Under the pieces are notes generated by a model that saw only the letters and a program-made list of their open reading frames with translations, had not been told where the DNA came from and ran no database searches. From the NCBI RefSeq assembly GCF_013044135.1, contig NZ_JABEPP010000004.1, forward strand, positions 519,428-583,427: a stretch of 64,000 bases of DNA. The letters run 5' to 3'. This DNA comes from Enterovirga aerilata (GTDB taxonomy: Bacteria; Pseudomonadota; Alphaproteobacteria; Rhizobiales; Beijerinckiaceae). The stretch's first letter is position 1. Every line of letters starts with the position of its first letter. Shown here one piece after another: positions 4,826 to 10,156 of the stretch. Position numbers and translations under genes: made by a program.

Positions 4826-5758
<933 letters not shown>

Positions 5759-5830
5759 GGCGTGACCGGCGCCGGTTCGGGGAAGTACGTCTTGTAGCGG
5801 CGCAGACCGCGCGTCACGAGCCGAACCTCA

Positions 5831-6577
5831 ATGCCGCTTCTCTTCCGCCGGGCAGCGCCTCCGCCGGAGCCCTCCACCATCGAGGTCCGGCATGCCGGGG
5901 CGTCCTTCGAGGTGGCGCTGCGACGCCGGCCCGGCGTCCGGCGACTGACCCTGCGCGTCTCGAATGCAACGGGCCAGGCGGTGCTGACGATCCCCGAACA
6001 CGCGACCCTGGCCTCCGCCCGCAGCTTCGCCGAGGCGCATGGCGGCTGGATCGCGGCCCGCATCGCCCGGGTACCCCCGCGGGTCGGCTTCGTACCCGGG
6101 TCCGAGGTCCCGATCCGCGGCATCCCACACCGGATCGCGCATCGACCGGGCCTGCGCGCGGTCGCGCGGACCGAGCGGGACGGGGCGGAGGGCGCGCTCC
6201 TCCTCGTCTCCGGCCTCGAGGAGGCGGTGCCGGGTCGCGTGCGCCGCTACCTGACGAGTGAGGCCGGGAAGGACCTGCGGGCGGCGGTGGCCAGGCACAC
6301 GCAGGCTCTCGGCATCCCGGCCCGCCGCATTGCTATCCGGGACACGAGGAGCCGCTGGGGCTCCTGTTCCTCCAGCGGGACGCTCAGCTTCTCCTGGCGG
6401 CTGATCATGGCGCCGCCCTTCGTGCTCGACTACCTGGCCGCGCACGAGGTCGCGCATCTGAAGGAGCTGAACCACTCCAACCGCTTCTGGCGTCTGCTCC
6501 GGGAACTCTGCCCCGCCACCGAGGAGGCCGAAAGCTGGCTCAGGCGCCACGGCGCCGGGCTGCACCGCTACGGGTAG
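5831..6577 (+). CDS. YgjP/DUF45-type zinc metallopeptidase
   Basis: This 248-residue protein of the YgjP (DUF45, M48-like) family has the zinc motif HEVAHLKELNHSNRFW near residues 201-216, in which the two His of HExxH and a downstream His ligate zinc, and the family motif RSRWGSCSSSGTLSFSWRL near 176. The N-terminal half (LRRRPGVRRLTLRVSN) fits the family's beta-rich region. The substrate is unknown in this family; members are thought to be cytosolic. Its stop codon directly abuts the stop of the converging udgX gene, with no spacer. Confidence 0.88.
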   Translation: MPLLFRRAAPPPEPSTIEVRHAGASFEVALRRRPGVRRLTLRVSNATGQAVLTIPEHATLASARSFAEAHGGWIAARIARVPPRVGFVPGSEVPIRGIPHRIAHRPGLRAVARTERDGAEGALLLVSGLEEAVPGRVRRYLTSEAGKDLRAAVARHTQALGIPARRIAIRDTRSRWGSCSSSGTLSFSWRLIMAPPFVLDYLAAHEVAHLKELNHSNRFWRLLRELCPATEEAESWLRRHGAGLHRYG

Positions 6578-8020
6578 CTACTCCGCGGCCACTCGCGACC
6601 GCGCCGCCCGACCCATGTCGCGGATGCGGCGCATGTCGTCCACGAAGGCCGTATAGGCCGTCCGCTTCGCATCCTCGTCCGGCAGGCGCAGCAGATAGGA
6701 CGGGTGCACGGTGATGTAGCCCGGAAAATCCTCCAGCAGCTTCGCCGGACCGCGGGCACGGGTGATCGGCACCTGCTTGCCCGTGAGCGCGAGCACCGCC
6801 GTGCCCCCGAGCGCGACCACGAGCTTCGGCTCGATCAGCTCCAGCTCGCGCATCAGCCACCAGCGATAGTGGCTGACCTCGCCGGCGGTCGGCTTCGCAT
6901 GGATGCGGCGCTTGCCGCGCTGCTCGAACTTGAAGTGCTTTACCGCATTCGTGAGGTACACGTCCTTGCGGTCGATGCCTGCCTCGGCCATCGCCCGGTC
7001 GAGCAGGCGGCCGGCCGGACCGACGAAAGGCCGGCCCTGGATGTCCTCCTCGTCGCCCGGCTGCTCGCCGACGAAGATGATGTCTGCGTGTTCCGGGCCT
7101 TCGCCGACCACCGCCTGCGTCGCGCCCGGCACGAGCGGGCCGGAAGACCTGATGATGGCATTGAGCTCGGCGAGGCTCGCGGGCGCCTGCTCCAGCATGG
7201 CGGCGAGCGCGCCCTCGGGCATGCGTTTCGTCGGCACCGTCGGCCCCTCCTCCAGCATGCGCTCAACGCGCGAGGAGGCGGAACGGACGAGGTTCGAGAT
7301 CGTGGCGGCTTCCGGCATGTTGCGCCAGTACTTCTTGGCCATGTGCTGCTGCATCAGCTTCGGGTTCGCGCGGGCCGGGTTGAAGGTGCTCTCGTAGTAC
7401 CCCGTCCAGCCGGCCTCGAACGCGTCGCCCGACGGAACGTCGGCTCGGCTTCCGGACGGGCCGAAGCGAAGCGTTACGCCGTCCCACTCGGCCGTGCCGA
7501 TCGGCGTGACGATGCGCCAGCGCATCGCCCGGAACCGTTCGACGAAGAACGGCGTCGCGGCCTGGAGGATGAAATAGTCGGGCTCGAACCAGGCGGCGTA
7601 GCGCTCGGGCTCGCCGGGCGCTGTCTCGATCTGCCGGAAACGGACATAGGCGTGCATCTTGTGGATGTCGCGCCGGACCGATTTCCGCATCAGCTCCAGC
7701 CGATGCACGACGGGGTCGCTCGCGATCTCCAGCAGCCCGCGCCGGCCGTGAGTGACGCGCCAGATCACGTCGTAGAGCAGCGCGTAGCGTTCCGGATCGC
7801 GGTGGGGAACGACCTCCTCGACCAGTTCCGCGACGGGGCGCGGCAGGCGCAGGGGAGGGGCGTCGGACCGGGCATCTCCCGCCGGCTCCGCCCCGAAGAG
7901 GCTTGGCTCGGCCACGGTCCATTCGATCTGCTCCGGCGGTATGCCGTCCGCGACCAGCCCGCGCACGGCCTGACGAAAGCCGGCGAGATCGGCGCCGGGC
8001 TGGAGAGCGATCTCGCGCAT
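6578..8020 (-). CDS. udgX: DUF4130-UdgX fusion: uracil-DNA glycosylase-family protein
   Basis: The start at 8020 overlaps the upstream gene as ATGA and gives 480 residues. The N-terminal half (about 1-240) is the radical-SAM-associated DUF4130 domain, with RYALLYDVIWRVTHGRRGL and HKMHAYVRFRQ. The C-terminal half (about 255-480) is a family 4-like uracil-DNA glycosylase: FVGEQPGDEEDIQGRPFVGP, then YLTNAVKHFKFEQRGKRRIH, then VALGGTAVLAL and VHPSYLLR. The KRRIH loop is the hallmark of UdgX, known from mycobacterial work to bond covalently through its His to uracil sites in DNA. All visible key residues are present. The role of DUF4130 is unknown. Coupling to the Uma2 gene and, beyond it, the radical SAM gene points to one repair pathway. 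Confidence 0.92.
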   Translation of the reverse strand: MREIALQPGADLAGFRQAVRGLVADGIPPEQIEWTVAEPSLFGAEPAGDARSDAPPLRLPRPVAELVEEVVPHRDPERYALLYDVIWRVTHGRRGLLEIASDPVVHRLELMRKSVRRDIHKMHAYVRFRQIETAPGEPERYAAWFEPDYFILQAATPFFVERFRAMRWRIVTPIGTAEWDGVTLRFGPSGSRADVPSGDAFEAGWTGYYESTFNPARANPKLMQQHMAKKYWRNMPEAATISNLVRSASSRVERMLEEGPTVPTKRMPEGALAAMLEQAPASLAELNAIIRSSGPLVPGATQAVVGEGPEHADIIFVGEQPGDEEDIQGRPFVGPAGRLLDRAMAEAGIDRKDVYLTNAVKHFKFEQRGKRRIHAKPTAGEVSHYRWWLMRELELIEPKLVVALGGTAVLALTGKQVPITRARGPAKLLEDFPGYITVHPSYLLRLPDEDAKRTAYTAFVDDMRRIRDMGRAARSRVAAE

Positions 8021-8646
8021 CAGGTCGTCCGCGCGAGCGGCGTCCGGAGGTAGAGCTCGCGCAGCTGGCACACGAGGCCGAGAACCGGGATCGAGAGCTC
8101 CGCATCCGGACCCTCGATCCGCTCCGCCCTCCAACCGTCTTCCGCCCGCAGATGCAGGACCGCCTCCATCCGGTCCTGCTCCACGACCAGCACGGCCTCG
8201 CAGCCCGGGAGCGCTCGATACCGCTCGGTCTTCACCTCGATCTTGCGCCCGAGACCGCGGCCGATACGCCTCCGGTCGCTCGGGGAGACGACCTCCGCCG
8301 CCACGATGCACTTCGCCGTGTAGCTGGAGGTGAGATCGACCCCATGGCTGTCCAGCACCATGACATCCGGGATGTACATGTTGCCCGGGAAGACGCCGGT
8401 CAGGTCGACCATACCTTGCGGGACCGCGGCCCAGGACGGGTCCGTTTCGGCCGTCGCAGCATCGATCAGCTTCGCCAGGTTGAAGGCGATGATCTGATGA
8501 TCGAGCCGGGGGCTGGCCTGCATCAGCGGCACACCATCGAACAGCTCCCAGCGCTCTTCGTCGGGCCGATCCTCGAGAAAGGCCAGAAAGCCCTCCCGGC
8601 TCAGCCCATCGGCTTCGCTCAGCCGTGCGCTCATGGCGCCCTCCAT
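8020..8646 (-). CDS. Uma2/DUF820 family putative nuclease
   Basis: This 208-residue protein has the Uma2 (DUF820) restriction-endonuclease-like fold. Visible pieces are WELFDGVPLMQASPRLDHQ near the N-terminus, YIPDVMVLD (the PD part of a PD-(D/E)xK core), VAAEVVSPSDRRRIGRG (the E part) and a following Lys-rich helix. ATG codons at 8646 and 8634 are both possible starts. The stop overlaps the udgX start as ATGA, implying coupled translation. Uma2 proteins are widespread and their cellular role is unclear; finding one between the radical SAM and UdgX partners is unusual. The radical SAM stop is 73 bases upstream. Confidence 0.85.
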   Translation of the reverse strand: MEGAMSARLSEADGLSREGFLAFLEDRPDEERWELFDGVPLMQASPRLDHQIIAFNLAKLIDAATAETDPSWAAVPQGMVDLTGVFPGNMYIPDVMVLDSHGVDLTSSYTAKCIVAAEVVSPSDRRRIGRGLGRKIEVKTERYRALPGCEAVLVVEQDRMEAVLHLRAEDGWRAERIEGPDAELSIPVLGLVCQLRELYLRTPLARTT

Positions 8647-8719
8647 CGGACGAGGACGGCAAGGAATGTCGATGCCCTCGCCAGTGCCGTCAACGCTTCT
8701 CCGTGTACCATGTACATCG

Positions 8720-9934
8720 TCAGAACAGCGCTAATTGCTTGGCCGCCGGCTGCACGAGCCGCGCCCGCAGGTCGGCGCGGTCCGTCGAGCCGCCCGGATG
8801 GTGGTCGGCCGCGATCAGAAAGGGCAGGCTGCGCTTCAGCGCACCGGACAGGCGCTTCAGGTCGTCGAGCCGCAAGGTCGTGTGCCGGCGCGCCCTGACG
8901 ATCTTGTCCACGGCCCGGGCGCCGAGGCCCGGCACGCGCAGCAGCATCTCGCGGTCCGCCTTGTTCACGTCGACCGGGAAGCGCGCGCGGTTCTTCAGCG
9001 CCCAGGCGAGTTTCGGGTCGACCTCCAGGTCGAGCATGCCACCCTCGGTGGCGGAGGCGATCTCCTCGACCCCGAACTCGTAGTGCCGCAGCAGCCAATC
9101 GGCCTGGTAGAGGCGGTTCTCGCGCTGCAGCGGCGGGGCCTTGGCCGGGAGCCTGGACGTGCTGTCCGGGATCGGGCTGAAGGCGGAGAAATAGACGCGG
9201 CGCAGCGCATAGCGATCGTACAGGTTCGCGGTGGTGCGCAGCATATCGGCATCGCTCGCGCCATCCGCGCCCACGATGAGCTGCGTGGACTGGCCGGCCG
9301 GGGAGAAGGAGCGCCTCTCCGCCTCCGCCTCCTCGATGCGCTCGCGCATCTGGCCCATGGCCGCCTTGATGGTGCCGGCCTGCTTTTCGGGCGCGAAGCT
9401 CTTCAGCCCCTCATCGGTGGGAAGCTCGAGGTTGACCGAAAGCCGATCGGCCCAGAGCCCCGCCTGCTCCACCAGCCAGGGGCTCGCTTCGGGAATGGTC
9501 TTCAGGTGGATGTAGCCACGGTAACCGTGCTGCTGGCGCAGCGACTTGGCGACCAGGACCAGCTGCTCCATCGTATAGTCCGGCGAGCGGATGATGCCGG
9601 AGGAGAGGAACAGCCCCTCGATGTAGTTCCGCTTGTAGAAGGCGATGGTGATGTCCACGACCTCCTGCACCGAGAAGCGCGCCCGCTCGACGTTCGAGGA
9701 GCGGCGGTTGATGCAATAGGCGCAATCGAACAGGCAGTAATTGGTCAGCAGGATCTTGAGCAGGGAGACGCAGCGCCCGTCGGGCGTGTAGGAATGGCAG
9801 ATACCGATCCTGTTCGTGGACCCGATGCCGCCGCGTCCCGCTGAGCGCTTCGGCGCGCCCGAGGAGGCGCAGGAGGCATCGTATTTCGCCGCGTCCGCCA
9901 GGATGCGGAGCTTTCGCGTAAGCCGCTCGTCCAT
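8720..9934 (-). CDS. Putative DNA modification/repair radical SAM protein
   Basis: This 404-residue protein starts MDERLTRKLRILADAAKYDA and carries the radical SAM cluster motif CxxxCxxC as NYCLFDCAYCINRRSSN near residues 65-80. LFLSSGIIRSPDYTMEQL and YIHLKTIPEASPWLVEQAG follow, typical of the family named as a putative DNA modification/repair radical SAM protein. The C-terminus has a helix-hairpin-helix DNA-binding element (LLRVPGLGARAVDKIVRARR). In many genomes this gene sits beside a DUF4130 gene, as it does here except for the Uma2 gene in between. The chemistry is not known. Longer upstream readings in this frame run through another gene and were rejected. A candidate SOS box lies just before the start. 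Confidence 0.92.
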   Translation of the reverse strand: MDERLTRKLRILADAAKYDASCASSGAPKRSAGRGGIGSTNRIGICHSYTPDGRCVSLLKILLTNYCLFDCAYCINRRSSNVERARFSVQEVVDITIAFYKRNYIEGLFLSSGIIRSPDYTMEQLVLVAKSLRQQHGYRGYIHLKTIPEASPWLVEQAGLWADRLSVNLELPTDEGLKSFAPEKQAGTIKAAMGQMRERIEEAEAERRSFSPAGQSTQLIVGADGASDADMLRTTANLYDRYALRRVYFSAFSPIPDSTSRLPAKAPPLQRENRLYQADWLLRHYEFGVEEIASATEGGMLDLEVDPKLAWALKNRARFPVDVNKADREMLLRVPGLGARAVDKIVRARRHTTLRLDDLKRLSGALKRSLPFLIAADHHPGGSTDRADLRARLVQPAAKQLALF

Positions 9935-9939
9935 CGAAT

Positions 9940-9954
9940 GTTCGCCGAATGTTC
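9940..9954. promoter_or_regulatory. Candidate LexA (SOS) box
   Basis: The sequence GTTCGCCGAATGTTC is a perfect GTTC-N7-GTTC direct repeat, the known alphaproteobacterial LexA box. It ends five bases upstream of the radical SAM start codon at 9934, so LexA bound there would block transcription or early elongation. No comparison with a lexA or recA promoter of this genome is possible here. Confidence 0.65.
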
Positions 9955-10035: not shown

Positions 10036-10156
10036 CCCTCTCCCCGGCGGGGAGAGGGTTGGGGTGAGGGGGACCAATGCTGTCCGAAGAGGGTGCAGCC
10101 CCCTCACCCGCCACCCGGCTTCGTCCGGTGGCGACCTCTCCCCGGCGGGGAGAGGT
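10036..10156. repeat. Intergenic palindromic repeat, two identical-core hairpins
   Basis: Two hairpins share the core CTCTCCCCGGCGGGGAGAG. The first (10036-10058) has 10-base arms around GGC; the second (10134-10156) has the same arm core and loop. Between them lies a further hairpin (about 10110-10132, CCGGCTTCGTCCGG-like). The layout resembles the dispersed short intergenic repeats of Hyphomicrobiales. It separates the radical SAM promoter from the downstream VOC gene and may also act as transcript end structure. Related elements appear at 59.8 kb and inside uvrC. Confidence 0.7.

Follow-up and report, generated by a model that had tools for sequence, protein, structure and literature searches.

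In a stretch of 64,000 nucleotides from Enterovirga aerilata (contig NZ_JABEPP010000004.1, positions 519,428 to 583,427 of the forward strand; the whole stretch is called the window below), three genes encoding a radical S-adenosylmethionine (SAM) protein, a Uma2 protein and a fusion of DUF4130 with a UdgX-related uracil-DNA glycosylase (UDG) domain lie behind a direct repeat of the form GTTC-N7-GTTC, a predicted LexA operator (SOS box). The repeat reads GTTCGCCGAATGTTC on the forward strand and is separated by five bases (9935–9939) from the start codon of the radical SAM gene, whose ATG begins at 9934. Both this spacing and the succession of three genes on one strand had been given in a preliminary description of the locus and were found as described. 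The coordinates and family assignments are collected in Table 1. In addition, the DUF4130-UdgX protein matches PF13566 (122.7 bits, cut-off 27), and PF04055 and PF03167 likewise exceed their curated cut-offs in the operon proteins. The Uma2 and DUF4130-UdgX genes overlap by ATGA, and the gap between the radical SAM and Uma2 genes is 73 bp. The host genome comprises 4.65 Mb in ten contigs.

Table 1. Features of the Enterovirga aerilata locus (positions in the window).
Feature	Position	Strand	Form or family match
SOS box / LexA operator (predicted)	9940-9954	+	GTTC-N7-GTTC on +, GAAC-N7-GAAC on gene strand
Radical SAM gene, 404 aa	8720-9934	-	TIGR03916 (rSAM_link_UDG), 553.3 bits vs cut-off 343.5
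Uma2 gene, 208 aa	8020-8646	-	PF05685 (Pfam: putative restriction endonuclease), 52.1 bits vs 27
DUF4130-UdgX fusion gene, 480 aa	6578-8020	-	TIGR03915, 188.1 bits vs 112.25; TIGR03914, 295.4 bits vs 189.95

The alphaproteobacterial LexA box is a direct repeat, according to a passage of PMC8565304. Counting the window's own, 130 alphaproteobacterial loci were compared, and 124 of them have the exact GTTC-N7-GTTC box upstream; among 2716 background windows of equal size taken elsewhere in the same loci, 14 contain it. The 130 loci are not independent, as they contain near-copies (e.g. L056/L144 and L077/L185) in addition to the window's own locus. In a first collection of 56 distinct loci (28 + 28, window's included) the exact box was found within 250 bp in 53, and the reversed motif, used as a control, in one; the box of L085 is counted in the combined 124 and not among these 53. 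A second collection of 74 further loci, drawn from the best 80 of 586 radical SAM relatives and thus biased to close relatives, showed the box in 70 and the reversed motif in two; one of its members (L177) is described in its title only as Proteobacteria. In two loci from the same genus as the window (L078 and L080) the box occupies the same place in the same orientation, and a distance to the called start of five bases or less, seen with 44 of the 124 boxes, makes the five bases of the window an ordinary spacing. The proposal of LexA control made in the preliminary description thus survived the comparison with orthologues in both collections.

It is this conservation, not the count within the window, that marks the motif as real. 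The window holds four GTTC-N7-GTTC motifs where 1.55 are expected, and four were reached in 5 of 100 shuffles, so that the count alone is near chance and not significant. The three remaining occurrences (24601, 58321, 63883) have poor spacer scores and were judged to be chance matches.

The type of box changes with the lineage. Nineteen beta- and gammaproteobacterial loci were available, three from plasmid records, ten from a separate search and six from the best 80 of the 586 relatives. The alphaproteobacterial motif was found in none of the 19, and CTGT-N8-ACAG, which we take to be the E. coli-type LexA box of beta- and gammaproteobacteria, stood upstream in nine, with no occurrence in 361 background windows. 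A LexA box of the host's own type on a conserved gene pair in two lineages would be hard to explain without LexA control. Such control is supported by the box upstream of orthologues in two collections together with the lineage-dependent type of box, and it is very likely, as judged from sequence comparison, for the window operon as well.

The Xanthomonas group departs from this simple scheme of host-type boxes. Six of the 19 loci, all from this group (L152, L154, L156, L165, L193 and L225), carry the palindrome TCTCA-N5-TGAGA, which is absent from the 361 background windows, and the same palindrome occurs around position 1500 in L215 and L216. The longer form GTCTCA-N5-TGAGAC was found at just one other place in two Xanthomonas genomes; in the one genome inspected this site adjoins a gene for a DEAD/DEAH-box helicase (TIGR03817-like, partial). 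A looser pattern of the palindrome occurs at further places, and no clear regulator gene was seen in the seven loci inspected.

The host genome encodes LexA (TIGR00498, 186 bits) with its own box 50 bp upstream of the gene. It holds 114 GTTC-N7-GTTC sites against 41 for the reversed pattern, and the excess is sharper for spacers ending in A/T followed by C/T (33 against 3 reversed), a group to which the window box belongs. When 20 reading frames beside boxes were scanned for families, seven were assigned to replication or repair, namely lexA, umuD, ssb, dnaB, dnaG, addB and a radical SAM gene of the PA0069 family, a family separate from TIGR03916. The box overlaps the called start at umuD, dnaG and the PA0069-family gene. 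The box of the latter reads GTTCTTGCTTTGTTC and lies on contig C4 at 310903-310917 (L101).

DUF4130 follows the radical SAM gene in 86 of 87 loci, and a UDG motif is present in the same frame in 71 of 85 DUF4130 frames. Eleven loci among the best 80 of 586 relatives contain a complete DUF4130-only reading frame, and of the ten complete alphaproteobacterial DUF4130-only loci eight keep the SOS box; no UDG half was seen in a Bacteroides and two Clostridia loci. Since DUF4130-only operons exist and mostly keep the box, the conserved core is, on the evidence of these frames, radical SAM plus DUF4130, with UdgX as a frequent fusion and add-on. Only complete frames were used for this statement; among the 25 of 154 examined loci without a UDG match are some that end early, as well as the cut locus of the window itself. 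A sequence search of the Protein Data Bank gave no match for DUF4130, and the structure-search listings were filled by UDG matches.

Uma2 had been presented as a component of the system, and this part of the preliminary description had to be given up. No relative of the window's Uma2 was detected in 55 other loci, nor in 87 loci (tblastn, E 1e-3), and Uma2 was rejected as a functional third gene on these counts (0/55 and 0/87). The nine Uma2 matches in the host genome, the window's included, fit a local insertion between two conserved genes.

Some loci depart from the usual arrangement. A radical SAM relative from Gemmatirosa (L222, 39%) has no detectable DUF4130 alongside. A gap of about 1.27 kb (5230-6503) lies between the radical SAM and DUF4130-UdgX genes in a Fulvimarina assembly (L179), and in an Azospirillum locus (L133, 2023-3537) the DUF4130-UdgX frame reads with two stops and is either a broken gene or a wrong frame.

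The radical SAM protein carries the CxxxCxxC motif at C67/C71/C74, and these residues are invariant both in an alignment of 20 rows and in another of 27. The same holds for cysteines 22, 46 and 55, which can also be recognised in 17 of 18 further loci, all but a partial match from Gemmatirosa; we infer that they bind an additional cluster. At the C-terminus there is a helix-hairpin-helix match below the Pfam cut-off. The AlphaFold2 model is of moderate quality, with a mean predicted local distance difference test (pLDDT) score of 77.9 and a segment (17-54) below 50, and its best Foldseek matches are radical SAM enzymes. The closest relative among the matches listed comes from an Enterovirga assembly (82%). 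Lipoyl synthases (LipS2/LIAS) share the radical SAM fold and further N-terminal cysteines (TMt up to 0.59) and give a weak profile match of 22.9 bits, far under the cut-off of 270. However, their cysteine spacing differs, and the window protein has the helix-hairpin-helix-like tail and a repair context; it is not proposed as a member of that family.

The UDG half of the fusion protein retains GEQPG (motif A), KRRIH with His 374, and HPSYLLR (motif B), in which tyrosine takes a place where the published motif permits S or A. It scores below the cut-off for family 4 uracil-DNA glycosylases (TIGR00758, 115.8 bits against 125.3), and its motif A is GEQPG and not GE(A/G)PG. In the structural model (pLDDT 87.9) this half superimposes on the UdgX structure 6ajo over 196 residues (root-mean-square deviation 1.7, Z 28.4). 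Mycobacterium smegmatis UdgX (6ail, 6ajo, 6iod) shares the fold, GEQPG, KRRIH and HPSxLLR, and the top Foldseek matches show 45-49% identity over the domain. The window protein differs from it in being fused to DUF4130 and in lacking the three aligned cysteines, all of which are present in M. smegmatis UdgX. Mutants of the latter at H109 are reported to give up the SDS-stable adduct band in favour of turnover. According to a passage of PMC10359453, UdgX is a 4Fe-4S protein; the 480-residue window protein contains no cysteine at all. Because the 4Fe-4S cysteines are missing, it is to be classed, as far as the sequence goes, as a UdgX-related variant and not as a typical UdgX; missing ligands likewise suggest that the cluster itself is absent.

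The window protein belongs to a larger group. The 154 loci examined yielded 129 UDG domains, which together with the window protein gave 130 rows, 128 of them readable at the three cysteine columns. The cysteines are present in an all-or-none fashion: 90 rows have all three, 38 have none and no row is mixed. Every one of the 128 readable rows retains the KRRIH-loop histidine, the other letters of this loop being variable, and with few exceptions the rows inspected also have motifs A and B. A tree was built from the 128 rows; its bootstrap had not settled and its root was placed at the midpoint. In it the cysteine-less rows form one side of a branch with support 100/91, recovered in 98% of 200 bootstrap trees. 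They include Methylobacterium, Microvirga, Enterovirga, Azospirillum, Acidocella, Hyphomicrobium, Belnapia and a Bosea assembly, and the SOS box is found in 40 of 40 cysteine-less alphaproteobacterial loci (the window's and two partial rows included). We read this distribution as the probable trace of one event, in which the cluster was lost and the active site retained; the direction, loss as opposed to gain, is chosen because M. smegmatis UdgX and family 4 have the cysteines, the root of the tree being only a midpoint.

According to the model that we favour, DNA damage would lead to RecA-driven cleavage of LexA and free the box, which covers the place of the radical SAM gene's ribosome-binding site. 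Radical SAM protein, Uma2 and DUF4130-UdgX would then be made, most simply from one transcript. The pair of radical SAM protein and DUF4130 would act on damaged or modified DNA bases by chemistry of an unspecified kind, an assignment that draws on the helix-hairpin-helix-like tail and the six invariant cysteines of the radical SAM protein. UdgX would excise uracil and form a bond with the abasic site through His 374, as suggested by this histidine and the retained motifs, and would do so without an iron-sulfur cluster. Bound in this manner it would hold the abasic site, to which the DUF4130 fusion would bring the radical SAM partner; a pathway joining uracil capture to radical chemistry may exist. 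Operator conservation with its change of type between lineages, gene order, the kept catalytic motifs and the absence of cysteines support the model at the level of sequence, and derepression, a single transcript, the catalytic activities and the cooperation of the two proteins would be its functional counterparts. Taken as a whole, a LexA-repressed repair operon with a radical SAM-DUF4130 core and a fused, cluster-free UdgX as covalent trap appears rather probable to us. An extension in which cluster-free UdgX caps abasic or uracil sites, radical SAM and DUF4130 repair the captured lesion or release the trapped protein, and a multi-family alphaproteobacterial group descends from an ancestor in which a single loss removed the cluster and left the covalent histidine and LexA control in place, is put forward tentatively and is, in this complete form, rather unlikely.

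UdgX might instead be a stand-alone covalent shield of abasic (AP) sites under genuine LexA control, with radical SAM and DUF4130 carrying out a different activity and having only the operon in common with it. In a passage of PMC10359453, UdgX is proposed to keep AP sites from fragmenting, with RecA-dependent pathways or proteases resolving the adducts. The solved chains of M. smegmatis UdgX, about 200–230 residues long, are devoid of DUF4130, and there are operons with DUF4130 alone. However, the frequent presence of the UDG motif in the DUF4130 frame argues for a shared task, and we consider the separate shield a possible, if not a likely, account.

The loss of all three cluster cysteines, in a protein with none anywhere, could also mean that the UdgX half has degenerated into a part that binds DNA and no longer excises uracil, leaving radical SAM and DUF4130 as all that matters. 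Yet the histidine, seen in every readable row, and motifs A and B, seen in almost every row inspected, persist over long branches and in many families, and the active site is therefore apparently under selection; degeneration is improbable.

Several observations weigh against the model as set out above. Six of the 130 alphaproteobacterial loci have no exact box; each carries a one-mismatch box, which is weak evidence since the same holds for 16% of 265-bp windows. Four of the 19 beta- and gammaproteobacterial loci have none of the boxes tested, and of four loci from other phyla, too few for judging Gram-positive and Bacteroidota boxes, only Acetoanaerobium has a one-mismatch box of the Gram-positive type. 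In the host genome, six of the 20 box-adjacent frames matched no family and seven appear unrelated (SLATT, oligopeptidase B, YdcK-like, PurQ, MFS, phage prohead protease and MazG), so many of the boxes there may be chance hits. As to the comparison with lexA and recA envisaged in the preliminary description, sites are enriched and lexA has its box, but recA was not located among the box-adjacent frames scanned. No sigma-70 consensus was seen near the operon in a scan that tells little, shuffles also giving 0.0, and the 73-bp gap after the radical SAM gene leaves room for a separate promoter. The window box itself, earlier called perfect, deserves the word for its intact half-sites and not for its spacer, the score of which is the third lowest among the 124 orthologous boxes (p 0.07 against random GC-rich spacers) and which lacks the T found at spacer position 5 in 109 of the 123 other boxes. 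That this box is decayed or a chance GAACATTCG repeat and that LexA no longer controls the window copy, as the weak spacer and the near-chance motif count would allow, is nevertheless very improbable, given intact half-sites, a place and orientation matching most orthologous boxes, including those of the same genus, and a lexA box in the host genome that scores below the window box by the same measure.

We take COG4277 to be the family of the window's radical SAM protein. In this sense LexA control of the radical SAM/UDG pair has already been published in outline and is not new. A passage of PMC8565304 predicts that a COG1573-COG4277 operon of Bacteroidetes is under SOS control and cites earlier reports of such control in Verrucomicrobia and Alphaproteobacteria; the name UdgX does not occur in that paper. 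This 'UDG base excision repair' operon has the same gene pair and a LexA-type box upstream and differs from the window by the inserted Uma2 and the cysteine-less UdgX of the latter. LexA control is also predicted for CAC3343-CAC3344, where CAC3343 is annotated as the same radical SAM protein (PMC3828012, in the relevant passage), and DUF4130, an SplB-like radical SAM protein and UDG, the same three domains as in the window, are grouped in a figure legend of PMC3765255 as associated with one another and related to mutagenesis, the part concerned containing no box survey or mechanism. A gene annotated as the same radical SAM protein is up in dried Acinetobacter, as stated in an excerpt of PMC13130816. 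PMC7739468 mentions 'a radical SAM protein' as belonging to the LexA regulons of Gram-positive bacteria and Balneolaeota; the family is not specified at that point, and no support is drawn from it.

What the present analysis adds are the beta- and gammaproteobacterial boxes and, as a new observation, the cysteine-less UdgX group; no such UdgX appeared in the literature listing or in passages of UdgX papers, with no dedicated search made. Within the open-licence literature searched, no paper joins UdgX with radical SAM, or UdgX with SOS and LexA, and the word 'SOS' does not occur in the main text of those UdgX papers that were checked for it. The literature on UdgX and that on SOS and radical SAM seem not to have met. 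Its discoverers call the physiological role of UdgX largely unknown (PMC10359453, passage cited above); a link to SOS and to a single radical SAM partner would make this role directly testable. Whether capture requires the cluster would become apparent from a natural cysteine-less group, which might also offer a more robust scaffold for UdgX-based tools for uracil mapping.

With regard to mobility, 158 of 72,556 plasmid records have a radical SAM relative, 58 of them from Phaeobacter, and the operon is often located on secondary replicons. In the viral collection the gene was found on a single contig only (L266, 12.6 kb; 62% radical SAM relative), which may be bacterial and wrongly labelled. 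In the space separating the window's operon from its upstream neighbour, a palindromic repeat-like stretch, ctctccccggcggggagag, occurs in two copies about 100 bp apart (10038-10154), and a similar stretch lies upstream of the operon in L047.

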